A stretch of 64,000 nucleotides of DNA, taken from Microbacterium atlanticum (GTDB lineage: Bacteria; Actinomycetota; Actinomycetes; Actinomycetales; Microbacteriaceae). Under the pieces are notes generated by a model. It made no database searches, was not told the DNA's origin, and saw only the letters and a program-made list of their open reading frames with translations. Positions 9,303 through 35,888 of the stretch are shown here, piece after piece. The stretch's first letter is position 1. Every line of letters starts with the position of its first letter. Made by a program: the position numbers and the translations under genes. Location: positions 2,728,001 to 2,792,000 of the forward strand of contig NZ_CP063813.1 in NCBI RefSeq assembly GCF_015277815.1, read 5' to 3'.

Positions 9303-10144
9303 TAGATGGCCTGCAGCGCGGCGAGCTTCGTGTGCATGAGACTCACGAGCATGGACTTTGACTTCAACGGCACCAGGATCAAGCGGATCTCAACCTCCAG
9401 CGGTTTCTTCAATCGAGACTCGAACGACGCGAGGGCGGCGCCAGTCTCTTCCGTCAACGCCGCAATGTACTCGTCGGTCACGACATCGTGTGCGTCGACG
9501 GCTTCGCTGTCGTAGGTAAGAAAGATTGGCATGACGAGTTCGGAGGAGATTTCGTCCAGGCTGCGCGCACGCGCGATCATCTCGCGGAAGATCGTCGCAT
9601 GCGGCCAATCATCATCGATCTTGCGAGTGATGAAGACGAACTCCTTGCGAAGGAAATCGGCTGCTAGGTGCGTTTCTATGTCCTTCAACACGCTCGACAT
9701 CGCCCCGTCAAGGTCTGAGTAGAACTTCGCCTCTCCTAGCCAGATCTTGAGCGCGCCTCCCGCCCCCGCGACGACGTGGACGCTGTCGAAGCCCTTGACG
9801 ACATCGTTTGCCGAATCTTCGTAGTAAATCTTGCTGACAGCGGGTTCGGCGCCATAGAAGTCAACGAGCGCAGCGTGGAGCAACAGCTCCCCGAACTCGC
9901 CGCGCCGCCCATACTTATCAGTGCTGTAGACGGATGTGGCAGCGTCTCGGATCGATCTGATTGCTGTGGCGCTCGAGATGTTCTTCGCCTCTGAGTAGCT
10001 GAGCGCAAATGTCAGAAGGTGGTTCTCGAACACATCGTCAACGAGCGCGTCTGCGCGCCAAGCTTTCAGTTCGTATCCCGCGCACAAGCTATCGACGGCG
10101 ACAGAGTTTGGCACGAGGCTCACCCGTACCTGCAGTACTGGCAT
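9302..10144 (-). CDS. hamA: Hachiman defence nuclease HamA (DUF1837)
   Basis: 280-residue DUF1837 protein, first gene of the defence operon, with an AAGGGG ribosome-binding site before ATG 10144. The catalytic core of its PD-(D/E)xK-like nuclease fold can be read: GEFGELLLH (Glu83/Glu86), KGFDSVHV (Asp120) and WLGEAKFY (Glu138, Lys140). In the known system HamA is held inactive by HamB and released to degrade DNA on infection. All expected acidic and lysine residues are present. The 187 bases between this gene and the divergent gene at 10332 must hold both promoters. Confidence 0.9.
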   Translation of the reverse strand: MPVLQVRVSLVPNSVAVDSLCAGYELKAWRADALVDDVFENHLLTFALSYSEAKNISSATAIRSIRDAATSVYSTDKYGRRGEFGELLLHAALVDFYGAEPAVSKIYYEDSANDVVKGFDSVHVVAGAGGALKIWLGEAKFYSDLDGAMSSVLKDIETHLAADFLRKEFVFITRKIDDDWPHATIFREMIARARSLDEISSELVMPIFLTYDSEAVDAHDVVTDEYIAALTEETGAALASFESRLKKPLEVEIRLILVPLKSKSMLVSLMHTKLAALQAI

Positions 10145-11519: not shown

Positions 11520-12405
11520 GTGACGCGACAGGAGATCTCTGACGAGGTGTGGGCCGTGATGGAGCCGTTGATGCCGACGGTGACCGGTCGGTCGCGGCCG
11601 TGGACGGATCACCGGCTCGCTATCGAGGGGATGGCGTGGAAGTACCGGACCGGTGCGCCGTGGCGTGACGTTCCGGAACGGTTCGGGAAGTGGAACTCGA
11701 TCTACAAGCGGTTCAACCGGTGGGCCGGGGACGGCACCTGGCAGAAGCTGCTCACCGAGGTGCAGAAGCAGGCCGACGCCGCTGGGGAAATCGACTGGGT
11801 CGTCTCGATCGACTCCACGATCGCGCGCGTGCATCAGCACGGCGCGACCCTCGCCCGGGACACAGGGGGCTGTGCCGAATCACAAGAATCCGTGGTCCGA
11901 GCCGCCTGATCACGGGATCGGACGCTCCCGCGGCGGGCTGACGACCAAACTGCACCTGGTCTGCGACGGCCGCGGCCGGCCGCTGAGCATGATGATCACC
12001 GCCGGGAACATCAACGACACCACGATGATGAGCGCGGTGCTGGAGAACATCCGCGTTCCCCGCGACGGGAAGGGCCGCCCCCGCACCCGCCCCGACCGGG
12101 TGCTCGCCGACAAGGGGTACCCCTCAAGGGCGAACCGCGCCTGGCTCCGCGACCGGAGGATCGCGGCGACCATCCCCGAGCGGGACGACCAGATCGCGCA
12201 CCGCCGCAAGAAGCCGGGCCGGCCGATCGCTTTCGGCGACAAGCAGAAGGAACGCTACAAGGGACGCAACGTCGTAGAACGCTGCTTCAACCGTCTCAAG
12301 CAGTGGCGCGGCATCGCGATGCGCTCGGACAAACTCGCCCGCAACTACCGAGCCGCCGTCAGCCTCGCCGCGGCGCTGATCTGGATCAAGACCGATCTCC
12401 GCTGA
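11520..12405 (+). CDS. IS5-family transposase in two frames
   Basis: Frame A (11520-11909) gives the N-terminal domain (ISDEVWAVMEPLMP, GMAWKYRTGAPWRDVPERFGKW) and the first catalytic Asp in VVSIDSTIARVHQHGA. Frame B then carries DHGIGRSRGGLTTKLHLVCDG, the second Asp in VLADKGYPS and the catalytic Glu in NVVERCFNRLKQWRGIA, ending at TGA 12403-12405. The switch in the +1 direction fits the run of five G at 11865-11869. Many IS5 relatives join two frames by programmed slippage, so this may be functional; a simple one-base mutation is the alternative. All three DDE residues are present. Confidence 0.88.
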
Positions 12406-15176: not shown

Positions 15177-18100
15177 CTACCGGCCCGGTGCCGCCCTGTC
15201 ACGAACACGCTCCGGCGCGCCGGAGACCTGATCATGTGCTCGGTGTGCCAGGCGTTGCGCCGTCTGGATCGCAACACGGGCAGCAGCAGCATCGCGCTCC
15301 TGCGCGCTGCCTGTCGGAACGCCGCCGAGTGGACGATGGCTCGTCACCCCGTACCGGTCGCGGTATGCGGCGACGATGCAAGCCTGACGCACCCAAGCCG
15401 CACGGGATGATCCCTCCGGCGCGACGCCGAGTGCGCCGACCCACGCCTGGCGTCGCGCGAGAGCAGTCTCCGCAAGACCCTGGGCTCGGCGTTCGATCAG
15501 CGCCTTTCGTTCGTCCAACGCGCGACGCATCTCGGGCGCCATCGGGCCGAGAGCCTCGGGGATGAGCCCCACAATCGCTCGCGACGCCTTCCGCCCGAGC
15601 CCACTGTCCATCTTCGCCGTCGCGTTCTCGAGGCGGGACAACAGGACCGTCGCGACATCGCCGGCCCCATCGAAACGGCGTGACCGCACAAGCGCGGAAA
15701 GCAGTTGGCGCACATCGTGGTGATCGGCCTCGGCCCGGCGGAGCGCAGCTGTCAGTCGACCGAATGCGTCCGAGCTCAGCACCGCCGCGGCTTCGGCGCT
15801 CGTCAGGCCAGCGCCCTCGACCAGAACAACCCAGCGGTCGTGCTGGGCGGCGGCTGCGATCGTCTCGTATTCAGCGGCGAGCTGTGCGATCGAGCCCCAA
15901 CGGTTCTGCTCCGCGGCAATCGTGTCGTGCGCAGACAGTTCCGCACCGACATGCTGGAGCACTCCGTGAAGCACAGTCCGCGCGGTCGCGTCGATCGGGT
16001 CCCCGGGGTGCGGTCCGGCGTGGGCAGCTTCCGGCCTGTCGATGGAGACGTAGGCCGTGTTCGTTTCGCGTCCGCGAGTCATCGCGACGTAGAGACTCTC
16101 CCGGGTCATCCCCGATCGCACCAGCACATGAGCCGTGTCGGTCGTGATGCCTTGTGCCCGGTGAGCGGTGATCGCGTAGCCCAGATCGACGTGTTCAGCG
16201 ACGTATGCAGAGGGCAGTGCGACGGTCGCTCCCCACGATCGGCCAGCTCGACGCACCAGCATCCCGCCATCGCGGCGGAGCGCAGTGACGCTCCATCTGT
16301 CGCCGTTGCGCACCCAGGTTCTCCCCGCGCGCATTGAGCGATCGTTTCGCCGCGTGATCACGATGTCACCGACTGCTGCCGCACCCTCGCGCAACATCAC
16401 TTCGTCCGGTCCCGTGATCTCACCGGCGAGGATCCGCTCGGCGCGGGCGCGGATGTTGAACGATGCAACGGCGTCGTTGGAATCCGCAACGAGGACACTC
16501 GATTTGCCACGTCGCACGTCCTGGCGCCAGTTCGCGTAGGCCGCGTCGATCATCGCGTCCCAGTCCCCCTCGGCCACCCTGCCGTGCTCCGCGTAAGCGT
16601 CAATCGCCTCGTCATTCCCATCACGCAGCTGAATGGATGCATCCCTTTCCCACGCGTGGAGGAACCGGTGGATGTCGACGAGCTCGGGCACGTCGTCTCG
16701 ATCGTGCACGAGCAGGGCGAACGCGCCGCCCGCATCGACAGCCTGAAGTTGCGCATGGTCGCCGACGAGGAGCACCTTCGCCCCCGCACGCTCCGCAATC
16801 CCCGTGATTCGATCGAGCGAGAGCGTGCCGGCGAGCGATGCCTCGTCAACGATCACCAACTGCCCCACCGAGAAGGCCTCGCCGCGGGTCAGGTGGTTGC
16901 TCCACCACTTGGCGGTGTTCTCGGTAGGGATGCCGAGTTCCTCAGCGAGCACGTGCGCCGCTCCCGCCGATGGCGCCAGCCCGACGACGGATCCGCGACC
17001 GTAGGCGGACTCCCAGGCGTTGCGAAGTGCTCGCATCGCCGTCGTCTTGCCCGTCCCAGCAGCCCCGACAAGCAGATCGACGGCGCGGCCCGAGCTGACG
17101 ATCCGGTCGAGAGCCACTCTTTGGTCGGTCCCGAGCGCAACGCGTTCATGCCCTGCGGATGGAATCTGCAAGGTGGTCATGCGCGGCGCGCTTGTGGTGC
17201 GAGATCGGTCGAGTAGCCGGCACTCGGCGTCAAGCAGGAGCTCGGCTGTGAACACGGCGCTCTGGCGGGCGCGGAACACGGACGAACCGTCGGCGCGCTT
17301 GAATGCAACGGGGCTCTCCGCAATCTCTGGCGGCGAGAGCCGCAGAGACGCGTTCTCGGCGGCGTCGGCGACGAGCTCGACGAGCGTTTCACGATCGGAT
17401 GCTGTTGCGAATCGCATCGGCATGGTCTGACGTGCAGCCTCGGCGATGAGGTTCCAGCGGCGCCACGTCGTCCGCCTTTCGGCGACTGCGACCATGACGC
17501 TTGCGCCGAGTGCCGCGAGAGCATCAGATGGCACGTCCGTCATGCGTGTCAGCGTGGGCTTCCCGCTGTTCGTGACAAGAGCGCGTGCCCAGGATGTTGC
17601 GTCACGCCCGAGCTCGTGCGTTGTGCGGTTGCGCCATCCGGCAGTCAGCTCGGCGAGCGAGTGCAGCTGCTTCTCGGGACGCGTTGTAAGCGTTGCCTGC
17701 GCGCGTAGCTTCATGATCGTTGCACGGGCAGGACGGTGACCATGCGTCGCGAGGTAGGAGGCGATCAACCGGTCCGTCTCGTCATCGATCGCGTGTGCGC
17801 GAGTGGAGAACGCTTGGACAAGCTCTTCGGGGACGCCGCTGATCGCCCACGTCGTGTTTCGGTCGCGTCCAAGACTGCGCCCCTCCCAATCGATGCCGAG
17901 TGCGCGGGTGAGCTCGTCGCTGAAGATCGCCTCGTGCAACTCGGACAATGCGACGACTGCGGCATGCAGAGGGCGGCCGTCCAGAGAACGCCATTTGCCG
18001 TCAAGTGCGGTCTGCACCTTGTTGCTCACTACGACGTGAGTGTGCAGATGCGGATCCCCCGCGCGGCTATCGAAGTGATCGAACGCCGTGGCGATGAGCC

Positions 18101-18626
18101 CGTTCACGTCGACCTGCGCAACCGCCCCGTCGGCAGCTGTGGCGCCCGTGCGCGTGGCCGCAATCTCGCGTTCCATGTACGCAACGACGTAGGCAACGGC
18201 ACGGTGGTGTGCCCGAGCGATGCGCTCCTGCGTCACCGCATCGGCGACGGCCCACAGCACGCTCGCCGACTTAGGAATTGAGAACGTGAAGTCGTAACCG
18301 GCCACCGCGCGCTGGCGGGACCCGCCAGTCTCCCCATCCTTGGCGTACTCCGGGTACGCACGACCGAGGGGTTCACCGTTGGACGGGTGGCGCCCCATTC
18401 CGATCAGCAGCTGCAGCTGAGCTTCGCTTACGGTGTCTCCCTCGCGGATGCTGGAGCCTAGCGAGCCCACGCCGCCCCCCATCCACCGGCCGGGCGGGGT
18501 GCCTTCCGCACTGTAGTAGCGCGTCAGCGGCGTGGAGAGCGAGCGGGAACCGTCTCCCACGGCCACAGTGCGGAGCAGGTACTTGTAGCCGTCGCCGGCG
18601 CTCATGACCCGCATCGAGACCGTCAC
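15177..18626 (-). CDS. MobF relaxase / conjugative helicase (TrwC-TraI family)
   Basis: About 1149 residues from GTG 18626 (VTVSMRVMSAGDGYKYLLRT, the conserved start). Relaxase domain: paired catalytic tyrosines RYYSAEGTPPG (Tyr37/Tyr38), and the metal-binding histidines in HFDSRAGDPHLHTH (His184, 193, 195, 197). Helicase domain: Walker A GAAGTGKTTAM (about residue 520), Walker B VIVDEASLAG, and a C-terminal UvrD-like motif LGYAITAHRAQGITTDTAHV. The enzyme nicks at oriT, stays attached to the transferred strand and unwinds it. No oriT was pinpointed; MobF origins usually lie near the relaxase gene, so the flanks 15054-15176 and 18627-18728 are candidates. An upstream in-frame start would add only 12 unlikely residues. 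Confidence 0.93.
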   Translation of the reverse strand: MTVSMRVMSAGDGYKYLLRTVAVGDGSRSLSTPLTRYYSAEGTPPGRWMGGGVGSLGSSIREGDTVSEAQLQLLIGMGRHPSNGEPLGRAYPEYAKDGETGGSRQRAVAGYDFTFSIPKSASVLWAVADAVTQERIARAHHRAVAYVVAYMEREIAATRTGATAADGAVAQVDVNGLIATAFDHFDSRAGDPHLHTHVVVSNKVQTALDGKWRSLDGRPLHAAVVALSELHEAIFSDELTRALGIDWEGRSLGRDRNTTWAISGVPEELVQAFSTRAHAIDDETDRLIASYLATHGHRPARATIMKLRAQATLTTRPEKQLHSLAELTAGWRNRTTHELGRDATSWARALVTNSGKPTLTRMTDVPSDALAALGASVMVAVAERRTTWRRWNLIAEAARQTMPMRFATASDRETLVELVADAAENASLRLSPPEIAESPVAFKRADGSSVFRARQSAVFTAELLLDAECRLLDRSRTTSAPRMTTLQIPSAGHERVALGTDQRVALDRIVSSGRAVDLLVGAAGTGKTTAMRALRNAWESAYGRGSVVGLAPSAGAAHVLAEELGIPTENTAKWWSNHLTRGEAFSVGQLVIVDEASLAGTLSLDRITGIAERAGAKVLLVGDHAQLQAVDAGGAFALLVHDRDDVPELVDIHRFLHAWERDASIQLRDGNDEAIDAYAEHGRVAEGDWDAMIDAAYANWRQDVRRGKSSVLVADSNDAVASFNIRARAERILAGEITGPDEVMLREGAAAVGDIVITRRNDRSMRAGRTWVRNGDRWSVTALRRDGGMLVRRAGRSWGATVALPSAYVAEHVDLGYAITAHRAQGITTDTAHVLVRSGMTRESLYVAMTRGRETNTAYVSIDRPEAAHAGPHPGDPIDATARTVLHGVLQHVGAELSAHDTIAAEQNRWGSIAQLAAEYETIAAAAQHDRWVVLVEGAGLTSAEAAAVLSSDAFGRLTAALRRAEADHHDVRQLLSALVRSRRFDGAGDVATVLLSRLENATAKMDSGLGRKASRAIVGLIPEALGPMAPEMRRALDERKALIERRAQGLAETALARRQAWVGALGVAPEGSSRAAWVRQACIVAAYRDRYGVTSHRPLGGVPTGSAQERDAAAARVAIQTAQRLAHRAHDQVSGAPERVRDRAAPGR

Positions 18627-18728
18627 CGCGACACCCCCGCTCCTCTCCGGGGAGGTGCGCACCCTCGATCTGCAAGAGGCGTGGCCGCCAGTGAGGGGGT
18701 GTCTGCGAAAGAGGCGACGGAGGTTCGG

Positions 18729-19877
18729 TCAGGTCGATGGATGGCGAGAGGTCAGCCAATCGGAGACGATCGCCTGCCAGCGCTCGGGGTCAGAGTTCCA
18801 GGTCATCGTGTGGGCCGCATCGAACTCGTCGAGCTGAACGAGATCGGGGCGGATTGCGGCCAGCGTTCGGCTGACCTCGAGCGGCGCCGAATCGTCACGT
18901 GCGCCATGGAGGATCAGTGTCGGCTTCGCAAGTTCGCGCGCACGGACTATCCAATTCAGGGTGCGCAGCGGGATCGGGCCGGGAAGCCCGAGAGTGCGAG
19001 CAAGCGGACCGAGCGAGAGCCATGGGACGGCGAGCAGTCCAGTACCGGCAGGAAGGCCTGCGCGGACGCAGTTGGCCTTCAGGGTTGCGATCCAGTCGAG
19101 CACGGGTGACTCGAGGATGAGTGAATCGACGTGCACGGAGTGTGTCGGGTCTGCAGCAAGGCGCAATGCGATCGCGGCGCCCATTGACCATCCGAAGAGA
19201 ACGATCCGCTGCGCGCCGTGGTCGACGGCATACCGAATTGCAACGGCGACGTCATCGACCTCAGTCGCACCGAGCGTTGACCGCCGGCGTCCAGCCCAGG
19301 GCCCGTCGCCGTCATTGCGGTAGGTCACGACGAGTGAGGTGTAGCCCCGCGCGGCCGCTACTCGTGCCCCACGAAGCGGCCCCGATCGCGGACTCCCCAT
19401 GCCATGAATGTGAATCGCCCAAGCGCCCGACGAATCGCCGTCGATGAGCCACGCCGGCGCGTCGCCGGCGGAAGTCGACAACCGCACCTCCTTGGCGTCG
19501 AGATCAGCTTCCGTGGGCGTCGTGTAGTAGATCCCACTCCACGACACACGATCACCAATCGCAGGCACGCGGGTGGCCGACAACTTCGTTACGCGCCGCG
19601 CAACACGATCCGGCCCTCGTTCCATCACATCCGCCGCGAGTTGCGCCCATCCTCCAACCTCGAACAGCAGCGTGTAGGAGCCGCGTGCGATGGTCTGCCG
19701 GGTTCGATCGAGGACGACCACGACGTCGCCGTCATCGATCTCGACATCCAGAATCGAGAGATCAAAGGTCCGCGGACCCGGTGGGGCAGTCAGCCTGCGA
19801 GCGACGCTCTCGCCGACGGCAAGCGCCGATGCGGCTACAGCACCCAGCATCCATCCCAGCGTTGTCAGTGTGCGCAC
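18729..19877 (-). CDS. Alpha/beta hydrolase, membrane-anchored
   Basis: 382 residues from GTG 19877 (GGGCGGGGGA upstream). An N-terminal hydrophobic helix (LGWMLGAVAASALAVGESVARR) precedes a ~100-residue extension. The hydrolase core follows: nucleophile elbow GWSMGAAI (Ser at about 228), acid in LHGARDDSAPLE and His in FDAAHTMTW. This looks like a serine esterase or peptidase of the BAAT/DUF-type alpha/beta hydrolases. It follows the regulatory trio on the same strand and lies upstream of the relaxase. It is a cargo-type gene with unknown substrate. Confidence 0.8.
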   Translation of the reverse strand: MRTLTTLGWMLGAVAASALAVGESVARRLTAPPGPRTFDLSILDVEIDDGDVVVVLDRTRQTIARGSYTLLFEVGGWAQLAADVMERGPDRVARRVTKLSATRVPAIGDRVSWSGIYYTTPTEADLDAKEVRLSTSAGDAPAWLIDGDSSGAWAIHIHGMGSPRSGPLRGARVAAARGYTSLVVTYRNDGDGPWAGRRRSTLGATEVDDVAVAIRYAVDHGAQRIVLFGWSMGAAIALRLAADPTHSVHVDSLILESPVLDWIATLKANCVRAGLPAGTGLLAVPWLSLGPLARTLGLPGPIPLRTLNWIVRARELAKPTLILHGARDDSAPLEVSRTLAAIRPDLVQLDEFDAAHTMTWNSDPERWQAIVSDWLTSRHPST

Positions 19878-19913: not shown

Positions 19914-20879
19914 TCATCGCGCATCTGAGCCAAGCAGATGTGCCTCTGCACGCTCCAGCAGTTGACGGTCTTCACTGGTCGGATCGAATTCGACTCGCGG
20001 GTCGATCATCGCGTCCCGGATCTCGACCACCTCTCGATGAAGCACGGTCTCGGGGTCCTCGAGCCGGATCGCTGTCGCACCCCGCTGCCTGAGTCCTGGG
20101 CGGACCCGGGTCGCGGCATCCCACAGCGGAGTGAGTTGCTGAACGAAACTCTGGGTTTGGGTCAGCCTCTTGCGCTCACTGAGATAGCGAAGTGCCGGCT
20201 GGCCCGCGAGGCCGACGCAAAGGAAGACGAACGTGAGGAGGAACAGCGGTCCATACAAAGTCCCTACCGCAGTCATCAGGTCGAGGTTCCCCGCAAGGTG
20301 GGTTACATCCATGACGATCACGCCGATGCTCAGTGAGACCCCCAACACAGCGCCGATGATGAGGGAGGCGGCCGGAACCCGCTGAATGCCGGTGCGGAGG
20401 CGGAACTGTCGGATCGCGACCGCCCCCATGGCAGCGACGACGATGCCGTAGTAGGTGAACTGGATGATGGAGTAGGCGGCCGCGGCCGGTTGGCTGCCGA
20501 GGTCGAGCATGAAGTTCGTGGTCGTCGAGCCCGTGTCGATGAGGAGGAATGCGATCACGAGCGCGACGAGTGCGACGACGAGCGTGGCCGAGCCGAGTGC
20601 GATTCGCACAGGAAGCGGCCGATACTCAGCGGCCTTCATGATGCCGCGGCCGAGAAAGAAGACGCCGATCATCAACGCTGCGTCTGCGATGAGAGTCCCA
20701 CCGTTCGAGCCGCCAAGGAGCGCGTCGACGGGTGCGTAGACAGCATCGACGCTGAGCGTCATGGCGATCGCGATGGTGATCGCGGCGTAGGTGATGCTGC
20801 GTTCTGTCCGCCTGCGCCGCAGGACCAGCAGGCTGATCACGAGCGCCCACATCAGAGTCGCTATAGCTGCCTGGATCAT
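19914..20879 (-). CDS. Multi-pass membrane protein paired with ImmA protease
   Basis: Starts at ATG 20877-20879 (MIQAAIATLMWALVISLLVL), overlapping the upstream protease stop as ATGA; an upstream in-frame start is not needed. About 321 residues with seven hydrophobic segments in the first 230 residues, then a cytoplasmic tail of ~90 residues with acidic HREVVEIRDAMIDPR and VEFDPTSEDRQLLERAEAHL. This layout matches the MAB_1171c-like membrane proteins encoded beside ImmA/IrrE proteases and XRE regulators in Actinobacteria (recalled). A signalling or export role is suspected but not shown. Confidence 0.72.
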   Translation of the reverse strand: MIQAAIATLMWALVISLLVLRRRRTERSITYAAITIAIAMTLSVDAVYAPVDALLGGSNGGTLIADAALMIGVFFLGRGIMKAAEYRPLPVRIALGSATLVVALVALVIAFLLIDTGSTTTNFMLDLGSQPAAAAYSIIQFTYYGIVVAAMGAVAIRQFRLRTGIQRVPAASLIIGAVLGVSLSIGVIVMDVTHLAGNLDLMTAVGTLYGPLFLLTFVFLCVGLAGQPALRYLSERKRLTQTQSFVQQLTPLWDAATRVRPGLRQRGATAIRLEDPETVLHREVVEIRDAMIDPRVEFDPTSEDRQLLERAEAHLLGSDAR

Positions 20880-21349
20880 CCGAAGATCTCCAAGTACCGA
20901 GACTCCGCGAACGCCGACCCACGGATCGCCGCGGCCAGACGGTCGGCGAGCGATTCTGCGGCCACCTCGCTCTCGCAATCGAGGTCCTGCCGGGCGAGGA
21001 GCCGGCGGCGCGTGTACGGCGGGATGTCGGGAAGCAGCAGGTCGTCAGCGGGGCAATCGTCGTCATCGCCGTGGCCGAGGATCATGTGCGCGAATTCATG
21101 GAGAACGAACTGCTGCCGGTGAAGAACCGAGTCGCTATGTGCGTGAAGCACAAGGTCTTCGGTGTCCCTGATGAGCCACACCGCGCAGATGCCGTCGTGC
21201 GCACCAAGGTCGGCGAGTTCTACGATTCGAAGCGCTCTCCCGCGGCGCTTCTGGAGCACCATGACCAATGCGTCGAAGCTGAAAGCGCTGCCCAGCGCGA
21301 GGTCTTCCACGGCCGTTGACACGGTCTGTTCGATGTTCACGTGTCCCAC
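20876..21349 (-). CDS. ImmA/IrrE-type metallopeptidase
   Basis: 157 residues from GTG 21349 with a GGAAGGGA site. The zinc motif HEFAHMILGH (about residues 85-94) is the HExxH signature of ImmA/IrrE proteases, and a downstream acidic region (ESEVAAESLADRL) can supply the third ligand. In known mobile elements ImmA cleaves a phage-like repressor to induce transfer. Here it is encoded between a membrane protein and an EspR-like DNA-binding protein, all on one strand, which is the expected arrangement for such control. Confidence 0.85.
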   Translation of the reverse strand: MGHVNIEQTVSTAVEDLALGSAFSFDALVMVLQKRRGRALRIVELADLGAHDGICAVWLIRDTEDLVLHAHSDSVLHRQQFVLHEFAHMILGHGDDDDCPADDLLLPDIPPYTRRRLLARQDLDCESEVAAESLADRLAAAIRGSAFAESRYLEIFG

Positions 21350-21402: not shown

Positions 21403-21825
21403 TCAGGTTTGGTTCATTTCCTCATCCAGGTATTTGCTGATCGCTTGAAGCGCCTTGGGCGACACATCCCCTAGCGTTCGCGCGGCGTATGACTTGACCC
21501 GCGCCGCCCGCATGGAACGGATGAGGTCGAGTTGGGCATTCACCTTCTCAGGCGTCGGTGCGTCCTCGTCACCGAGCAGGAATGGTGCGTCGACATCGAA
21601 GAAGGCCGCGAGGCCATCGACGATCAGAGGGTCCCGGACGTATCGGTGCCCATTGACCATGTAGGTCCAACGCGATCGCGAGAGGCTCGTGCCTCGCGCT
21701 TCGAGGAACGCCGAGATTTCGGAATAGGTCGGCTCGGCGCCTGACTCGGCGGTGGAGACATCGAGCAGGAGTCTCAGGCGTTTCGCCAGATCCTGCGCCG
21801 CTGACTTGTTGTCGTCGTCCGTCAT
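21403..21825 (-). CDS. EspR-like XRE regulator
   Basis: 140 residues from ATG 21825 (MTDDDNKSAAQDLAKRLRLL). The helix-turn-helix is EPTYSEISAFLEARGTSLSRSRWTYMVNGHRYV, followed by a dimerisation part ending LGDVSPKALQAISKYLDEE. Domain order and the unusual spacing (YSEI...LSRSRW...NGHR) match mycobacterial EspR-type regulators (recalled alignment) rather than the short phage XRE repressors. The divergent space upstream holds the phased repeat array at 21901-21997, its likely target. An alternative upstream start (ATG 21855) adds ten residues. Confidence 0.78.
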   Translation of the reverse strand: MTDDDNKSAAQDLAKRLRLLLDVSTAESGAEPTYSEISAFLEARGTSLSRSRWTYMVNGHRYVRDPLIVDGLAAFFDVDAPFLLGDEDAPTPEKVNAQLDLIRSMRAARVKSYAARTLGDVSPKALQAISKYLDEEMNQT

Positions 21826-21900
21826 TCCGCTGGACCACCCTTCACCCTCGGGCAAGGCAAGGCATCGTCGCTCGATTGTTTATGGTACCCATCGATTGGG

Positions 21901-21997
21901 CATGCTCAATGTACTCGTTGGTCATGCTCAAAACAACGGTTGCGCATGCTCAAAGTCAGTGCTACACCAGAGCTAGTGAAGACTTGAGCATGCTCAA
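21901..21997. promoter_or_regulatory. 22-bp-phased operator array
   Basis: The 9-mer CATGCTCAA occurs at 21901, 21923, 21945 and 21989. Spacings are exactly 22, 22 and 44 bases, i.e. one slot (21967) is empty. The last copy is part of a perfect 14-base palindrome TTGAGCATGCTCAA (21984-21997). Steps of two DNA turns put every copy on the same face, as for cooperative binding by a regulator or for plasmid-type iterons. It lies between the minus-strand EspR-like gene and the plus-strand transfer operon. The region 21856-22235 has no gene. Confidence 0.85.
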
Positions 21998-22235
21998 CGG
22001 AGGTGACGACAGCACCGATCTCGGCTACGGCCCAGCTTCGTATAGAAGCCGCTGGCTCTCGAACCGTCGCCCGGAGTGACTTCTCGCGGGCCCATCAACC
22101 TTGCACTCTCGCACGTGATGACCCCGCTCCTGCGGTGCGGTCTCGCGAAGTGCCCCATCAGCTCCCCATGGAGCACCTCAGTGTCATGGACGCACCGCAC
22201 AGAAGGCGCGCCATCACTCAGGAGAGGTGGTCGTC

Positions 22236-23291
22236 GTGTCCGACCAGATGGCAAGACCCGACTCCGAGTCGAAGCTCAACGAGTTGCATGATCGACTCGT
22301 CCGTTCTGTCCAGGCCCTCATCGAGAGCGACGACTGGAAGCGGGCACTCGAATTCGCAGCTCGGTTCCGCTCGCGGTCGTTCAACAACTCATTGCTGATC
22401 TGGGCACAGCACGCGGCCGCGTTCGAGGCGGGAACGGTAGGCGAGCCCACGCCAACACATGTCGCCGGCTTCAAGCAATGGCAGGCACTCGGCCGCAGCG
22501 TGGTGGCCGGCCAACACGGCTACATGATCTTCGCGCCGCGGACGGCAAGGTTTGCGACGACGACACCACTGGATGCCGCGTCATGGCGCATGCTCGCGCC
22601 ACGGGAGCGCCCCCGTCCTGGCGAGGCTGTGCGCACGGGCATCACCGGCGCGCGGCCCGCGTATGTCTGGGACATCGCGCAGACGAGCGGCCCGCCAATC
22701 GCGGAACCTCCGCGACCTCAGCTCCTTCTCGGCGATGCACCTGCCGGGTTGTGGAGCGGGTTGACCGCTCTGATCGAAGAAGAAGGGTTCAGCTTGTCGA
22801 TGGTCACCGATGCGGCTTCCCTCGACGGCGCCAACGGACGAACTGACTTCTCGCATCGGCAGGTCGCGGTTCGGGAAGATATGGATGCCGCCGCGCGCAC
22901 GAAGACTCTGGCGCACGAGCTCGCTCACATCCGGCTGCACGGGCCGCACCACCAAGCACTCACGCACCGCGGCATCGGCGAGGTGGAGGCAGAGTCCGTC
23001 GCGCTGATGGTCGCGGCCGCACACGGGATGGACACACAGAGCTACACGATCCCGTACGTCACCGGATGGGCCACTTCCGTTCCCGATGCGGATGCCGTCG
23101 CCGTTGTCCAGCAGACCGGCGAGCGGGTGCGGCGGGCGGCGGTCGCCATTCTCGAGGCGCTGCCCACCGAACAGGTCAGCGCGGCTATCCTGCCCGGCCC
23201 GGAACGCCCGCCCGCGCGCGAATCCCTTCGGCGGACCACTTCGGCCGCTCCGCATAGCGCAGGGCCAAACCCAACGCGGAGCATGGCGTGA
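22236..23291 (+). CDS. ArdC-like antirestriction protein with metallopeptidase domain
   Basis: 351 residues from GTG 22236 (GGAGAGG site 8 bases upstream; an earlier GTG 22227 overlaps that site). The N-terminal ~100 residues (SRSFNNSLLIWAQHAA, FKQWQALGRSVVAGQHGY) are the ssDNA-binding domain of ArdC, which protects incoming single strands. Residues ~225-235 carry HELAHIRLH, a zinc peptidase motif, with the downstream EVEAESVALMVAAAHGM region. First gene of the plus-strand run; its stop overlaps the next GTG. Expected to act in the recipient during conjugation. Confidence 0.85.
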   Translation: MSDQMARPDSESKLNELHDRLVRSVQALIESDDWKRALEFAARFRSRSFNNSLLIWAQHAAAFEAGTVGEPTPTHVAGFKQWQALGRSVVAGQHGYMIFAPRTARFATTTPLDAASWRMLAPRERPRPGEAVRTGITGARPAYVWDIAQTSGPPIAEPPRPQLLLGDAPAGLWSGLTALIEEEGFSLSMVTDAASLDGANGRTDFSHRQVAVREDMDAAARTKTLAHELAHIRLHGPHHQALTHRGIGEVEAESVALMVAAAHGMDTQSYTIPYVTGWATSVPDADAVAVVQQTGERVRRAAVAILEALPTEQVSAAILPGPERPPARESLRRTTSAAPHSAGPNPTRSMA

Positions 23292-24178
23292 ACATCGCAG
23301 AGGTGCTGCTGGCCGTCGCGCACGTGGATCCGCGCCGCGCGGCCATCCAATTCGCGACCGCGGGTCTGCCGATCTTCCCATGCGAACCAGGGGGCAAGCG
23401 ACCGCTGACCGGGGCGGGATTCCTCGACGCCACGCACGACATTGACAGGGTCGCCGCATGGTGGCGCCACACGCCCCACGCCAACATCGGGATGCCCACC
23501 GGCGCAAAGGCGGGGATCGATGTCGTCGATGTCGATGTCAAGTCGGACGGGACTGGTTTCACGATGCTCCAGCGAGCTCTGGATGCGGGCTTGCTCGACG
23601 GAGAGCTTGCTCGTGTTCGAACGCCGTCGGGCGGTCTGCATGTCTACTTCCCGGCGGCGCCGATTCCCCAGCGCTGCTGGCAGGCGGCTCGCTGCCACAT
23701 CGACTTCCGTGGCGACGGCGGGTACGTCGTCGTGCCGCCGTCCGTCGCCATCGTCTCGACCGGTACGGGGCGCTACCGTCCGTTGTCCCTCTCATCTGCT
23801 CCATCCCGCCCCGTCGATGCCGGCGCCCTGCGCGACTTCGTGGATCCTCGGCCCGCGCGACAGGAGCGCCAGGGCACTCACGGCATCAGCGGCGAAGCGC
23901 TCTCGCTGTGGGTCTCCCGGCTGAGGGAGGGCGAGCGCAATCACGGACTGTTCTGGGCCGCGTGCCGGATGAGCGAGGCGGGCGAAACCGCGGACGCCAT
24001 TCTCGAGGTCCTCGGGCCCGCTGCCACTCGCATCGGCCTCGACCCGAGAGAGATCGAGCGAACCGTCTCCTCCGCGTGCCGGCATACCCACTTGAGCCCG
24101 GCCAGCACGAGCATGAGCGCGGTCGGCCGCGCTCCGACTCGACCGCACGTGTCGACGTCGATGCGGAGCCTTCCATGA
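23288..24178 (+). CDS. Bifunctional DNA primase/polymerase (prim-pol)
   Basis: 296 residues from GTG 23288, overlapping the previous stop. N-terminal prim-pol domain: LPIFPCEPGGKRPLTGAGFLDAT, WWRHTPHANIGMPTG, the metal-binding DVVDVDVKSDGT (about residue 80) and RTPSGGLHVYF with the downstream DFRGDGGYVVVPPS. The C-terminal part (LREGERNHGLFWAACRMSEAGE) is the helical cap common in mobile-element primases. It makes primers or fills in strands during plasmid/ICE replication. Its stop overlaps the DUF2637 start. Confidence 0.9.
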   Translation: MNIAEVLLAVAHVDPRRAAIQFATAGLPIFPCEPGGKRPLTGAGFLDATHDIDRVAAWWRHTPHANIGMPTGAKAGIDVVDVDVKSDGTGFTMLQRALDAGLLDGELARVRTPSGGLHVYFPAAPIPQRCWQAARCHIDFRGDGGYVVVPPSVAIVSTGTGRYRPLSLSSAPSRPVDAGALRDFVDPRPARQERQGTHGISGEALSLWVSRLREGERNHGLFWAACRMSEAGETADAILEVLGPAATRIGLDPREIERTVSSACRHTHLSPASTSMSAVGRAPTRPHVSTSMRSLP

Positions 24179-25356: not shown

Positions 25357-26178
25357 ATGCCGGAATCCAGCCACGCCAAGAACTTGACGTTCAAAGACTC
25401 GGAAGGTCTTCGAGCGGTGCTCGACCGCATGAGCAGCGAAGGAGGCGGGGCATGGCAATCGGACCGTGAGGTCGCCGATCTCATGAGCTACGCGGCCTCC
25501 CGATACGCGGCGCTCGCTCGCAAGCACGGACTCGACCCGTGGGAAGCGGCGGCCGCAGCGTTCGATGCCATGCGGGTCACGTCGACGCGGCACGCAGAGG
25601 ACCCGTGGGCCCTTGTGACACGGGCGGTGCAGGTGACGTGCATCGCCGAGGAACGGGCGCGCGGATTGATGTGCTCCGTCCACCAGGCGCGGCGGCCCCG
25701 CTACTCGGTCTTCCACGACGCCGAACGGTTCAGCGATCGAGAGAATGCCCTGGTCGACTACCACCCCGCCTTCCGGGTTCAGCCACCCGATTACCACGTT
25801 TCGGAGGAGACGGTCGCCGTTGAATCGGCGATGGAAGACGCGATAGCCCTCTTCGCGCTGGTGGGCTGGTACGCCGATACCGCTCGCGCCGGCGTCGAAT
25901 ACGTGTGCGCACGACTCGCCGATGCCGCATCTCGCGCAACTGCGTTCGAGCAGCTCCGCCGCGACCACGCCGCTCGAGCGTTGCTAGACGTTCCCCAGAC
26001 GGCATGGCGCGCGATGCTCCGTGCGCTGCTCGGGTCCCCCGACCCCGCGCAGCAAAACACGGCGGCTGGCCGTGGCATCTTGCTGCGTCTCCTCGTCGGC
26101 GAATCCCTGGAGTCGCTGCTCCACGATGACCGCCTGCTCGCTGGACTTCTCGAGAACCTGCCCCGCCGACGACCATGA
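25357..26178 (+). CDS. Hypothetical protein of transfer operon
   Basis: 273 residues from ATG 25357, set by a strong AGGAGGTG site; an upstream in-frame ATG at 25270 is ruled out by this. Mostly helical, with LMSYAASRYAALARKHGLDPWEAAAAAFDAMR and a region similar to sigma-like or replication-associated helices (WALVTRAVQVTCIAEERARGLM, RYSVFHDAERFSDRENALVDY). No catalytic motif is visible. It overlaps the following ParB-like gene (ATGA) and probably functions with it in element maintenance. Confidence 0.7.
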   Translation: MPESSHAKNLTFKDSEGLRAVLDRMSSEGGGAWQSDREVADLMSYAASRYAALARKHGLDPWEAAAAAFDAMRVTSTRHAEDPWALVTRAVQVTCIAEERARGLMCSVHQARRPRYSVFHDAERFSDRENALVDYHPAFRVQPPDYHVSEETVAVESAMEDAIALFALVGWYADTARAGVEYVCARLADAASRATAFEQLRRDHAARALLDVPQTAWRAMLRALLGSPDPAQQNTAAGRGILLRLLVGESLESLLHDDRLLAGLLENLPRRRP

Positions 26179-27230
26179 AGCAGCAGGGGCACATCGAGCT
26201 CGAACGATCCGTCGACTCCATCCGCGTCGGATCGCGACACCGCGTCGACCTCGGTGACATCGATACGCTGGCCGAATCGATCGAGCGGCAAGGACTGCTG
26301 CAGCCCATCACAGTCACACCTGAAGGAGTTCTCGTCTGCGGCGCACGCCGACTCGCTGCGCTCCGGCAGCTCGGTGTCCGCACCGTCAGCGTCTGGGTGC
26401 GCGCTGGCATCTCAGACCGCCTGACCCAACTGCTCGCCGAGCAGGACGAGAATGCTCTGCACAAACCGCTGTCACCTACCGAGGCGGCCGCGCTGTACCG
26501 CGAGTGCAAGGCACTTCTCGCGGAAGACGCGACACGCCGACAGATCGCATCTCGATTCGGTGCCCCGGCGAAGCCAGAACATCCTGACGGCGCCGTTACG
26601 CTAACGGCACCGTCGAAAAGGAACGACAGCGACACGAGAACCCAGGCCGCCCTCCTCGTCACTGGTCGACGCTCGTTCACAACGCTGGATCGCATCGGCC
26701 GGCTGCAGGACATCGCCGATGACTCGTCGCTCCCCGCTCAGGTGCGCCGGCACGCGGAAGAGGAACTCGACGCGGTCGCAAACGGCGCACCTGTCCTTCC
26801 GGCCTTCCGTCGCGTGAGCGAGGAACAGGTCCTCACGGAACTGGATGGGGTTGCCCAATCGCAGGCGGAATCTCCCGAAGCGCAGAAAGCCGCTGTCCAG
26901 GCCGCGGCAAAGATTCGGGCCGGCGAACAGCCGTCGTGGGGTGAAGACCCGAAACAGTTCGCCGTAAGGGCGCTGACCCGTTCACAGGGCACCAGTGCAC
27001 CGAATAGCTCTCCTCGGCGGGTCGCGACCGCTGAACTCAAGCGCTTTGTCTTCACCTGGGATGACCTCGCGGGCTGGTGGGAGAGATTCGATCCGACGGT
27101 GATCGCCGCGGGGCTCACGCAGGAGGAGTGGCACCGGTTCGAGGCGACACTCGAGGGCAGTCTGAGCTTTGCCCACCGCATCCGCGAGCTACGCGACGAT
27201 CGCTCGACAACGTCGCAACGCGCGAGCTGA
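26175..27230 (+). CDS. ParB-like nuclease/partition protein
   Basis: 351 residues. The ParB N-terminal domain shows SIRVGSRHRVDLGDIDTLAESIERQGLLQPITV, the CTP/phosphate-binding box VCGARRLAALRQLGV (about residues 55-70) and then LLAEQDENALHKPLSPTEAAALYRE, which precedes a helix-turn-helix (TRRQIASRFG). No ParA partner lies in the window. Comparable orphan ParB proteins accompany conjugative elements. Long charged C-terminal extension of unknown function. Start overlaps the previous gene by four bases. Confidence 0.85.
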   Translation: MKQQGHIELERSVDSIRVGSRHRVDLGDIDTLAESIERQGLLQPITVTPEGVLVCGARRLAALRQLGVRTVSVWVRAGISDRLTQLLAEQDENALHKPLSPTEAAALYRECKALLAEDATRRQIASRFGAPAKPEHPDGAVTLTAPSKRNDSDTRTQAALLVTGRRSFTTLDRIGRLQDIADDSSLPAQVRRHAEEELDAVANGAPVLPAFRRVSEEQVLTELDGVAQSQAESPEAQKAAVQAAAKIRAGEQPSWGEDPKQFAVRALTRSQGTSAPNSSPRRVATAELKRFVFTWDDLAGWWERFDPTVIAAGLTQEEWHRFEATLEGSLSFAHRIRELRDDRSTTSQRAS

Positions 27231-27951: not shown

Positions 27952-29115
27952 ATGGCGAAGTTCGTCGGCAGTCTCATCGTCCTCGTGCTCGTGTTCCCGT
28001 CGGTCGGGTTGATCGTGGTCGCGACGCTTCTCAGCCCGGTGGTCATGTCGTGCTCGCTCAGCAACTTGGTCGTCGGTTCGATTCCGGAGTCGCTGACGGC
28101 CCGGACGCGCGACGGTCATGCGATCACTCTCAACAGGCAGCAGCTCAGCCACGCCGCCACAATCATGACCGTCGGCGCGCAGACTGTCGGCGTCGGTCGC
28201 TCCGGAGTTGTCATCGCTGTGATGGCTGCACTCACCGAGTCGACGCTTCGCATGCTGTCGAACACAACCGCGTATCCGGCGTCGGCCGCCTACCCGAACG
28301 ACGGCGACGCCTCTGACCATGATTCGCTCGGGCTCTTCCAAATGCGGCCCGCGTCCGGATGGGGAACTGTGGCCGAGCTGATGGACGCGACCTACCAAGC
28401 GCGCGCGTTCTTCGGCGGCGCATCGGGACCCAATGGAGGGTCTCCAGGCGGACTCCTCGATATCGCCGGCTGGCAGTTGATCGACCCGGGCGTCGCTGCG
28501 CAGCGGGTCGAAGTCAGTGCGTACCCCGCCCGGTATCAGAACTACCAGCCAGTCGCCGAGGCGATCGTCGACGCCCTCACTGCAAGACCTTCGAGCGCGG
28601 GAGCGCAAGGCGAGGTCCGTGTCCCGGAGACGACTCGAATCGCGTTCCCACTGCCCTCTGGCACCTACACCGACACCTCCAGTTACGGATGGCGTACCGA
28701 CCCGTTCACGGGCAACCGGACCTTTCACGAAGGCAGCGACCTCGCCGCCGCGGGCGGGACTCCCATCCTCGCGATTGCCGACGGTGTGGTCACGTTCGCC
28801 GGTCGCAGCGGCGGCTTCGGAAACCTGATCATCGTCGAGCACACAGTTGATGGCGAGCGCGTCGCGTCCTACTACGCACACATGTGGGAATCCGGCGTGC
28901 ACGTCATCGCCGGCAGCACCGTCACCGCCGGCCAGCACATCGGCGACGTCGGATCGTCCGGCCGCTCGTCGGGCACCCATCTCCATCTCGAGATCCACCC
29001 GGACGGAAGCGACCATCCCCCGGTGAACGCCATCGAGTGGCTCACGAAACACAACGCCGATGGCGCGTCAGGCGGGCGGATCGTCCCCGCAGATTGCGTC
29101 GCGAGCGGATCATGA
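27952..29115 (+). CDS. M23 peptidase with lysozyme-like domain (conjugative cell-wall hydrolase)
   Basis: 387 residues. An N-terminal membrane anchor (SLIVLVLVFPSVGLIVVATLLSPVVM) is followed by a lysozyme/transglycosylase-like part (GRSGVVIAVMAALTESTLRML, HDSLGLFQMRPASGWGTVAELMD). The C-terminal M23 domain has SYGWRTDPFTGNRTFHEGSDL (first zinc ligands His/Asp) and GTHLHLEI (HxH). This is a typical VirB1-like enzyme that opens peptidoglycan for the secretion channel. Stop overlaps the next start by ATGA. Confidence 0.9.
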   Translation: MAKFVGSLIVLVLVFPSVGLIVVATLLSPVVMSCSLSNLVVGSIPESLTARTRDGHAITLNRQQLSHAATIMTVGAQTVGVGRSGVVIAVMAALTESTLRMLSNTTAYPASAAYPNDGDASDHDSLGLFQMRPASGWGTVAELMDATYQARAFFGGASGPNGGSPGGLLDIAGWQLIDPGVAAQRVEVSAYPARYQNYQPVAEAIVDALTARPSSAGAQGEVRVPETTRIAFPLPSGTYTDTSSYGWRTDPFTGNRTFHEGSDLAAAGGTPILAIADGVVTFAGRSGGFGNLIIVEHTVDGERVASYYAHMWESGVHVIAGSTVTAGQHIGDVGSSGRSSGTHLHLEIHPDGSDHPPVNAIEWLTKHNADGASGGRIVPADCVASGS

Positions 29116-32562: not shown

Positions 32563-33327
32563 ATGGAACCTCACGGGACTACCCGTCAAACCGCGGCCGC
32601 CGCGTCGAGTGCGATGAAGGATCTCGCTCAGGCGACAATCGCCATCGACAACCCTGCCGATCTCCACCTGGTCGTCGACGAACTTCTCGGTTCGCTCCGG
32701 TCACTCGTTCAAGTCGCCGACCAGCTCGCTCATGCGCACATGCACCATCGTGGACGCGCGCGCACCCATGACGGTGATGCAGCCCTGGGCGCACACGAAG
32801 CAGACGGCGCCACGTGGGCACTCGTGCGAACCCGCGAGCTCCTCCACGCAGCCCAGGGCGCCACCGACCTCGCTTCCCAGGACTCGGGCCAAATCGCATG
32901 GGCCCCCATCGAGAAGAGCGAGCGATGGGTGAACGTCGTGTTCCAGCAAGGTATCGACGCTCACGAAGCGCTGGACATCCTCGAGCGGTCAGGTGCCCAG
33001 GCAGCTATCCGACACCTCTCGCGCTGGGACTACGGCGACGAAACGACGGAGGCTGCCCTCGCCAACGGGTACGTCTATGAGGGGATCCCCCACTGCCCGA
33101 CCGACCATACCGCCGAGGACCCGGCTTCCGGGTACGCGCTCATCCATAATCCGACGCTTGGCTACGTCTCGCTCGTGCGTCGCTTCCGCTCCGGCGCAGA
33201 TGACCTCGGCGATGCGTCCCCAGCCACCAAAGCTCCAGCGGAGCCGTCACCATCGCGCGCCACGCCGCATTGGATCTCGTCGCGTCCCAGCGTCCACCGA
33301 GCAGGCGCGAGGAGCGTCTCGCTGTGA
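32563..33327 (+). CDS. Hypothetical transfer-operon protein
   Basis: 254 residues, ATG 32563 with GGAG seven bases upstream. A helical N-terminal half contains ADLHLVVDELLGSLRSLVQVADQLAHAHMHHRG. A conserved C-terminal domain has ALDILERSGAQAAIRHLSRW, ETTEAALANGYVYEGIPH and YALIHNPTLGYVSLVRR. I recall the second domain from other actinobacterial conjugative elements, always near VirB4/TraG genes, without known activity. The stop overlaps the next gene's GTG start. Confidence 0.7.
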   Translation: MEPHGTTRQTAAAASSAMKDLAQATIAIDNPADLHLVVDELLGSLRSLVQVADQLAHAHMHHRGRARTHDGDAALGAHEADGATWALVRTRELLHAAQGATDLASQDSGQIAWAPIEKSERWVNVVFQQGIDAHEALDILERSGAQAAIRHLSRWDYGDETTEAALANGYVYEGIPHCPTDHTAEDPASGYALIHNPTLGYVSLVRRFRSGADDLGDASPATKAPAEPSPSRATPHWISSRPSVHRAGARSVSL

Positions 33328-34805
33328 AAGAAGATGAACAGCTGCACGCCAGCACCCTGATCAACCCGCACGGCGAACGTCGCCATCTGCGACGCAGCCG
33401 CGAGCGCGACGCCGCTCGGCTCGAGGCCGATGCTCGAAAGACTCGCGCCCTCGATTCGAAAGAACGCTGGGCAGCCCAGCGCGCTGAAGCCCGGGCCGCA
33501 GCTTACTTGCCGGCCGCGGGTGAGCCGGGGCGGGCAGCATTGCGAATGCCGGGCCGCCTTCGCCTTCCTCAGCATCAAGACACGTCCGCCACGCTGGCCG
33601 GCCACTACCCGTTCCTGGCCGAAGCGGGGCTGGGCTCGGCCGGGGTCTTTGTCGGCCAGAACCTCTACTCCGGTGGCTCGTTCGTCTATGACCCGTGGGT
33701 GCTCTACCAGCGCGGCCTCATCACGGCGCCGAACGTGGTGCTCGCCGGCATCGTCGGGTCTGGGAAGTCATCTCTCGCCAAATCGCTATACACGCGCTCC
33801 CTCCCGTTCGGACGCCGCGTCTACGTCCCGGGCGATCCGAAGGGTGAACATACTGCGGTCGCAGAGGCGGTCGGGGGCCGTGCGATCATCCTCGGTCACG
33901 GACTCCGCAACCGTCTCAACCCCCTCGACGAAGGACACCGCGCGTCGGCCCTATCCGACGCGGAGTGGGCCGCTCAGATCGCTTCTCGACGCCGAGATCT
34001 GATCGGGGCTCTGGCGGAGACCGTGCTCGAGCGCTCCCTCACACCCCTGGAGCACACTGCGATTGATCTCGCCCTCACGGACACCGTCCGCAGCGCGGAG
34101 GTGCCGATCCTGCCCATGGTCGTCGAACGCATCCTCTCCCCCAGCATCGCCGAGGATCGCGAGCGGCGGCTTGTTGAAGATGGCCGACTCGTTGGGCATG
34201 CGCTCCGTCGACTCGTCGCCGGCGACTTGGCGGGGCTGTTCGATGGTCCGTCGACTGTTCGCTTCGATCCATCCCTGCCGATGGTGTCGCTCGACCTGTC
34301 CCGCGTCGCAGAGAACTCCACCCTCGTCTCTGTACTGATGACCTGCTCATCCGCATGGATGGAGTCGGCATTGGCGGATCCGTCCGGCGGGCAGCGTTGG
34401 GTCATCTACGACGAGGCGTGGCGCCTGATGGCCTATCCGGCGTTGCTGCGCCGGATGGATGCCCAATGGCGCCTGGCACGACACTTCGGCATCGCAAACA
34501 TGCTCGTCTTCCACAAGCTCTCCGACCTTGACAATGTCGGTGACTCCGGTTCGGCGATGCGCGCCCTCGCCTCGTCGCTCCTTGCCAACGCCGAAACCCG
34601 CGTCGTCTACCGGCAGGAACCCGATCAGCTCGGCGCCACTGCGGCTGCGCTCGGCCTGACTCGCACGGAGATGAACCTGCTCCCGTCCCTCGGCACCGGT
34701 CAGGGACTCTGGCGAATCACAGACCGCAGCTTCGTCGTCCAGCACCAGTTGCATCCCGACGAACTTGCTCTGTTCGACACCACCGCCCGAATGACGGCGG
34801 CCTGA
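33324..34805 (+). CDS. VirB4-like conjugation ATPase
   Basis: 493 residues from GTG 33324 (GAGGAGCG site, overlap with previous stop). Walker A GIVGSGKSSLAKS (about residues 155-167), Walker B RWVIYDEAWRLM (about 370) and the sensor region MRALASSLLANAETRVVYRQEPDQ follow the VirB4/TraC pattern. The protein lacks the long N-terminal domain of Gram-negative VirB4, as usual in Actinobacteria where SCO6880 supplies part of it. Powers assembly and transport by the type IV channel. Confidence 0.9.
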   Translation: MKEDEQLHASTLINPHGERRHLRRSRERDAARLEADARKTRALDSKERWAAQRAEARAAAYLPAAGEPGRAALRMPGRLRLPQHQDTSATLAGHYPFLAEAGLGSAGVFVGQNLYSGGSFVYDPWVLYQRGLITAPNVVLAGIVGSGKSSLAKSLYTRSLPFGRRVYVPGDPKGEHTAVAEAVGGRAIILGHGLRNRLNPLDEGHRASALSDAEWAAQIASRRRDLIGALAETVLERSLTPLEHTAIDLALTDTVRSAEVPILPMVVERILSPSIAEDRERRLVEDGRLVGHALRRLVAGDLAGLFDGPSTVRFDPSLPMVSLDLSRVAENSTLVSVLMTCSSAWMESALADPSGGQRWVIYDEAWRLMAYPALLRRMDAQWRLARHFGIANMLVFHKLSDLDNVGDSGSAMRALASSLLANAETRVVYRQEPDQLGATAAALGLTRTEMNLLPSLGTGQGLWRITDRSFVVQHQLHPDELALFDTTARMTAA

Positions 34806-35848: not shown

Positions 35849-35888
35849 GCGCCTTCCTCCCCCTCCCACTTTCCTGCGGGGCCCGCCC

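Follow-up and report, generated by a model that had tools for sequence, protein, structure and literature searches.

What is the role of a short array of regularly spaced near-palindromes that lies, in a bacterial mobile element, between operons read in opposite directions? In the window (the whole 64,000-nucleotide stretch of Microbacterium atlanticum DNA that was analyzed), copies of CATGCTCAA start at 21901, 21923, 21945, and 21989, i.e., at steps of 22, 22, and 44 bp, as a sequence-only reading of the same stretch had reported, and all four sit within 14-bp near-palindromes that begin 5 bp earlier. The array was therefore redefined as 21896 to 21997, with four sites, O1 to O4 (Table 1), the last of which is the single perfect palindrome that had also been noted in that reading. 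We argue that this array is very probably the four-site operator of the adjacent EspR-like autorepressor and that it controls two back-to-back sigma-70-type promoters. The sites, their spacing, the promoter-like elements, the synteny, and the exclusive pairing with the regulator can all be read from the DNA itself.

Table 1. Sites, predicted promoters, and genes at and around the array (positions in the window)
Feature	Position	Strand	Sequence or elements	Remark
O1	21896-21909		TTGGGCATGCTCAA	Least conserved; overlaps -10 edge of predicted regulator promoter
O2	21918-21931		TTGGTCATGCTCAA	Inside spacer of predicted regulator promoter
O3	21940-21953		TTGCGCATGCTCAA	Left half is predicted -35 of transfer promoter
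O4	21984-21997		TTGAGCATGCTCAA	Perfect palindrome; about +9 to +22 of predicted transfer promoter
Predicted regulator promoter	21908-21936	-	-35 TTGTTT 21936-21931, 17 bp, -10 TACATT 21913-21908	
Predicted transfer-operon promoter	21940-21968	+	-35 TTGCGC 21940-21945, 17 bp, extended -10 TGC-TACACC 21960-21968	-10 hexamer TACACC 21963-21968
Leader hairpin	22171-22231	+		CACCUC pairs with ardC ribosome-binding site
EspR-like HTH regulator, 140 aa	21403-21825	-		Proposed array-binding autorepressor
ImmA/IrrE-like M78 metallopeptidase	20876-21349	-		Proposed anti-repressor; Peptidase_M78 E 0.0025
DUF6545/MAB_1171c-like membrane protein	19914-20978	-		Proposed sensor; DUF6545 above cut-off, MAB_1171c family below
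Alpha/beta hydrolase	18729-19877	-		Enzyme of cassette
MobF (TrwC) relaxase	15177-18662	-		TrwC E 9.7e-90
ArdC-like gene	22227-23291	+		First clear transfer-operon gene; alternative start GTG 22236
Primase-polymerase (Prim-Pol)	23288-24178	+		
ParB-like protein	26175-27230	+		
M23 peptidase	27952-29115	+		Probably part of transfer apparatus
VirB4-like ATPase	33270-34805	+		Match below family cut-offs
VirD4/TraG-type coupling protein	35646-37709	+		

Sites and their conservation

On the two strands of the window, CATGCTCAA was found 5 times, always in the array, where 0.33 occurrences were expected; TTGNNCATGNNCAA with at most one mismatch was found 6 times in the window against 0.69 expected, and four of these sites are within the array. 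In the 3.71-Mb genome, exact TTGNGCATGCNCAA identified only O1, O3, and O4, and the reversed pattern gave no match.

Using the regulator as the query, we found relatives at 79 loci in several actinobacterial families, 78 of which have upstream DNA (L011, with 9 bp upstream, was excluded from array counts). At least three sites with no more than two mismatches lie beside the homologous regulator in all 78 loci, and at least four do so in 69. Together with the window, these loci make up an alignment of 79 rows, of which 40 are non-redundant and 26 fall into one closely similar group; counts out of 39 given below refer to anchored rows and leave out L077, which was not anchored. The O1-O2 step is 22 bp in 31/39 rows and 23 bp in 8/39, and the O2-O3 step is 22 bp in 36/39 and 23 bp in 3/39, whereas the O3-O4 step ranges from 43 to 47 bp. 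The steps of the array are thus kept in related elements; lack of such conservation was one half of what the sequence-only reading had named as counting against it. Its claim that every site presents the same face of the helix stands for O1 to O3, with their steps of 22 to 23 bp, but not for O4, which floats relative to O3.

The pairing with the regulator is also seen at genome scale. A pattern built on O2 and O3 had 16 matches in 15 of 398 family genomes (reversed control, 0), all of them 61 to 102 bp away from a member of a set of 18 regulator homologues with at least 67% identity; the exact pattern was absent at 2 of these 18 close regulators, one with CGTG variants (G204, the same locus as L132) and the other G444. 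In 1.43 Mb (1,425,212 bp) of related loci, allowing one mismatch, the array zone held 295 sites and the remaining DNA 1, and the reversed pattern had 5. The group of 26 closely similar rows (the L014 group) represents one version of the regulatory region, present in Leucobacter, Agromyces, Propionicicella, Nostocoides, Kocuria, and other genera, a spread that suggests recent wide transfer of this version.

Predicted promoters and the ardC leader

Between the sites, the alignment contains conserved letters that do not belong to the operators. A strict generic scan of the array region for sigma-70 promoters and terminators found none, so the two predicted divergent promoters rest on the comparative alignment. 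Their -35 elements are 3 bp apart in the window, where both -10s are weak. With counts that lean towards the model, since for the transfer spacer the best fit among 16 to 19 bp was kept and letters from each -35 region served in anchoring the rows, minus-strand TTGnnT-N17-TAnnnT is present in 38/39 rows, and plus-strand TTGCGC, which forms the left half of O3, in 37/39, with a TG-extended -10 at 17 or 18 bp further on (TG in 38/39 rows, a TA start in 33/39, no TA in 6/39). O4 was located in 38 rows and begins there 20 to 24 bp past the start of this -10; the one anchored row that lacks the regulator-promoter pattern, L059, also lacks O4 at the expected place. We dropped an alternative leftward promoter (-35 TTGAGC of O1, -10 TACCAT), because TTGnnT-N17-TAnnnT fits 38/39 rows and because O1 of the L042 group starts 29 bp upstream of the start codon.

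The near-constant distance of O4 from the -10 indicates what occupies the 44-bp step. The sequence-only reading had seen an empty slot there; we read it instead as the -10/start region of the transfer promoter, with no operator missing, which accounts for an O3-O4 step that floats while the others hold at 22 to 23 bp. A gap of 66/67 bp is found in five loci (L069, L072, L074, L078, and L080). In the four of these that are aligned, the right half of O3 is gone, TTGCG or TTGTG of the -35 half is retained, and the -10s are not of the TA type. Loss of the right half with retention of the left hexamer is as expected if this hexamer doubles as a -35.

Sites placed over a -35, a spacer, a -10 edge, and an early transcribed region indicate repression, and the proposal of a regulatory array preceding the transfer operon is supported. 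The sites are graded in quality: mean mismatches to the perfect palindrome are 0.18 for O4, 1.56 for O2, 1.77 for O3, and 2.18 for O1, and O4 is a perfect palindrome in 34/39 rows. With O4 the best site and O1 the worst, transfer could be turned off before the regulator's own promoter is. The same gradation would permit an ordered filling in which low occupancy of O4 and O3 represses transfer while activating the regulator promoter, and Rco of pLS20 is described as both activating and repressing its own promoter (PMC4207663). This variant, which is compatible with our model, is possible, yet we incline against it, as the placement of O1 and O2 in the regulator promoter, at the rim of the -10 and between the two hexamers respectively, is one usual for repression.

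A second, translational layer of control is possible in the leader of ardC. In loci of the ArdC type, a conserved CACCTC ... ribosome-binding-site element lies between the transfer promoter and ardC. The window leader folds at -32 kcal/mol (z -2.1) with its ribosome-binding site paired; when 16 further leaders were folded, z was between -1 and +1.1 in 9, so that folding strength alone is unremarkable in these. Pairing of ACCT with the first AGG had a mean probability of 0.54 over 27 rows, against 0.16 in letter-keeping shuffles, and exceeded 0.5 in 17 of them. RNAalifold on the leader alignment A2 gave neither a consensus structure nor covariation support (31 leader rows, excluding the badly cut L041 and L055 and the over-long L009 and L010, with two others shortened), and a search of 21800 to 22400 against Rfam had no match up to an E value of 1.

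The regulator and its cassette

The regulator had no match in Pfam or NCBIfam up to an E value of 0.01. Against EspR (3r1f), phmmer aligned residues 12 to 132 with an E value of 5.6e-4, and a structure model with a mean pLDDT of 84.6 retrieved EspR as the top Foldseek match (probability, 1.00; E, 2.2e-3; none at E of 0.001 or below). Both results bear out the EspR-like assignment made in the sequence-only reading. Relatives of the regulator were sought in 50,697 phage records, with no match at an E value of 1e-5.

Recognition helix and operator appear to vary together. SRSRW is found in the window clade and in the distant locus L086, both with GCATGC-centred sites; in loci with SRARW, SRGRW, or SRTRW, those sites that were found are mostly ACATGT-centred. 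L100 departs from this, with SRSRW and TTAGACATGTCCAA downstream of its cassette; L101 and L125 are mixed cases, and many distant loci are without a site. This co-variation is only suggestive, since the window clade counts once and L086 is essentially the sole independent case. Together with the co-inheritance of array and regulator, this suggestive pattern supports the earlier proposal that the regulator is the binder.

The genes leftward of the regulator are equally constant. An M78 gene adjoins the regulator in 79/79 loci and carries HExxH in all of them, so an ImmA-like anti-repressor role is a natural inference; 12 aligned M78 proteins share an HRQQFVLHExAH block, the window protein matching its Pfam family at 18.1 bits, under the cut-off of 22, and solved structures at chance level only. 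The DUF6545 gene is present in 74/74 and the hydrolase gene in 70/70 loci with enough sequence. The DUF6545 protein matched no solved structure up to an E value of 1, and the structures nearest to the window hydrolase by sequence are an esterase and monoacylglycerol lipases. On the transfer side, in loci with enough sequence, homologues were found of ArdC in 63/76, of Prim-Pol in 69/74, and of ParB in 64/69, and a relaxase of the window's MobF type in only 9/64 (within 10 kb). With the regulator cassette constant and ArdC, Prim-Pol, ParB, and relaxase variable, the array belongs to the cassette rather than to replication or nicking.

Such constancy of the M78, DUF6545, and hydrolase neighbors, and a ParB-like gene in so many loci, might also fit a different binder, the M78 or the ParB-like protein, with the EspR-like protein acting elsewhere. 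We consider this quite unlikely: no ParB homologue was found in L068, L069, L071, L078, and L080 (5/69), which retain their arrays; an HTH fold was obtained for the regulator alone among the constant cassette genes, the others having been scanned with Pfam; and operator type tracks the recognition helix of the regulator in most cases read. The sequence-only reading had allowed, besides a transfer switch, for an iteron-like origin. That the array is an iteron-type origin, at which an initiator or relaxase binds phased repeats and starts replication or nicking, is highly improbable: the repeats do lie near a Prim-Pol gene in an element with a relaxase, and a single DNA strand of the array folds well (z -4.1), as palindromes must, but the array is kept in L069, L074, L078, and L080, where neither ArdC nor Prim-Pol homologues were found, and in L068, where no Prim-Pol homologue was found, window-type relaxases are as infrequent as stated above, all 16 pattern matches in the 398 genomes lie beside a close regulator homologue, and the sites match promoter geometry, with only 1 beyond the array zone in 1.43 Mb.

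Other genes of the window were recorded in passing. A DprA-like gene (34850-35848, plus strand; DNA_processg_A E 9.6e-64) sits between the genes for the VirB4-like and VirD4-like proteins. To the left of the transfer region, at 7179-10144 (minus strand), a HamA gene (PF08878, E 2.1e-52) adjoins a DEAD-box helicase gene, a pair that resembles Hachiman-type defence, and an ORF in the left flank (11653-12405, plus strand) looks by eye like a transposase of the IS5 kind.

A candidate switch, distant cassettes, and known systems

From the arrangement of sites, promoters, and genes, we infer binding, cooperativity, repression, cleavage, and a signal, and propose the following model. O1 and O2 would lie across the promoter that drives the regulator-M78-DUF6545-hydrolase operon leftward, and O3 and O4 would cover, at the rightward ardC/prim-pol/T4SS promoter, the -35 and an early stretch of the transcript. 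Regulator dimers at O1 to O3, two helical turns apart, could touch and cooperate, while the perfect site O4 would anchor the complex across the transfer promoter. Occupied sites would close both promoters, keeping the element quiet and the regulator autoregulated. Both would open once the repressor is lost, for which the ImmA-like M78 protease encoded in the same operon is the likeliest agent, and the DUF6545 membrane protein may relay a signal to the M78 step.

Distant homologues of the regulator (about 30 to 50% identity), on plasmids and in other genomes, extend the comparison. In 46 distant loci, exact TTRNRCATGYNYAA, a pattern written after inspection of some of these loci, has 14 sites, 12 of them within 400 bp of regulator or cassette edges, a zone that makes up 10.7% of the distant-locus DNA, and the exact reversed pattern has 0; with one mismatch there are 29 sites, 20 of them near, against 5 for the reversed pattern, and 27/46 loci have no site even then. 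The first 14 distant plasmid loci were without an array of the window type and had single sites only. Six loci (L106, L110, L111, and L114 to L116) combine regulator, M78, and DUF6545, with window-type transfer genes undetected within about 5 kb and no CATG-centred palindrome upstream of the regulator; their cassette possibly has a different job.

In 34 of 52 distant loci, one of four unrelated enzyme families, assigned in part from record annotations, is encoded no more than 4.5 kb from the regulator: alpha/beta hydrolase in 18, PAP2-like in 8 (L153 being counted by its similarity to other loci, as its sole Pfam hit was to MauE and weak, at E 0.003, and L155 having a PAP2 match under the cut-off), MpaB/Lcp-like oxygenase in 5, and FAD/geranylgeranyl-reductase-like in 3. 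No locus has two of the families, and 18/52 have none of the four, while M78 and/or DUF6545 are present in 46/52. This exchange of enzymes supports, without proving, a role for them in signalling. Tentatively, and with more doubt than confidence, we suggest that the cassette may be a new type of small-molecule-responsive conjugation switch, in which an EspR-like repressor, M78, and DUF6545 are combined with an exchangeable enzyme for the synthesis or breakdown of the signal. If so, each enzyme would mark its own pheromone channel, possibly based on lipids or terpenoids, that times the transfer of its element.

Compared with EspR of Mycobacterium tuberculosis, the regulator is related in sequence and fold over most of its length, and autogenous regulation and cooperative binding, which we propose here, would be shared features. 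EspR, a nucleoid-associated protein that binds autogenously and cooperatively, has the consensus TTTGC[TC][GA] and occupies hundreds of sites (PMC3315491), whereas the inferred sites here form one cluster per element. Comparable cassettes are found on Arthrobacter plasmids and related ones (pAO1, FB24 plasmid 1, and others), with a homologous regulator (38 to 48% identity in 20 examined) and M78 and/or DUF6545 genes, many of them adjoining transfer-type genes. They differ in that the regulator is usually last in the operon and there is no 22-bp array; their sites are of the ACATGT type or were not found, and L086 has TTGAGCATGCTCAA.

Our literature search found no paper containing TTGAGCATGCTCAA or DUF6545, and one that contains the name MAB_1171c. 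MobF relaxases have been reported in a Leucobacter strain, in a paper whose main text mentions neither EspR nor ImmA nor ArdC (PMC6868719). In titles and the beginnings of abstracts, we found no description of how such elements are switched on in high-GC Gram-positive soil and water bacteria. The locus offers a widely conserved candidate for such a switch: its regulator and the four sites can be named, two promoters are predicted, one protein is a probable protease anti-repressor, and another may be the sensor. Related cassettes are present on known catabolic plasmids such as pAO1.

Two known conjugation switches come close. In ICEBs1 of Bacillus subtilis, the metalloprotease ImmA inactivates ImmR (PMC6540685). 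Our locus has two features of this type, an HTH regulator gene adjoining an M78 gene and repeated sites between the regulator and the transfer operon, and would share with ICEBs1 the pairing of a master repressor with a metalloprotease anti-repressor in the control of conjugation. Unlike in ICEBs1, the regulator here is EspR-like by sequence and fold, and a DUF6545 membrane gene and an enzyme gene are constant companions. A Pfam scan of the 10 main genes near the array named no RapI-PhrI. In pLS20, Rco controls divergent promoters that overlap each other, by way of repeated 8-bp motifs, CAGTGAAA, grouped in two operators that are 75 bp apart and loop (PMC4207663). Divergent regulator and conjugation promoters overlapped by repeated operators, predicted in our case, and a transfer promoter distant from its first gene would be common to both systems. 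Here, by comparison, four 14-bp palindromes span 102 bp, and a second, distant operator cluster as in pLS20 was not found (the 1.43 Mb of related loci contained a single site beyond the array zone). We thus liken the proposed switch to ICEBs1 ImmR/ImmA and pLS20 Rco, but built on a different regulator family, an uncharacterized membrane partner, and an exchangeable enzyme.
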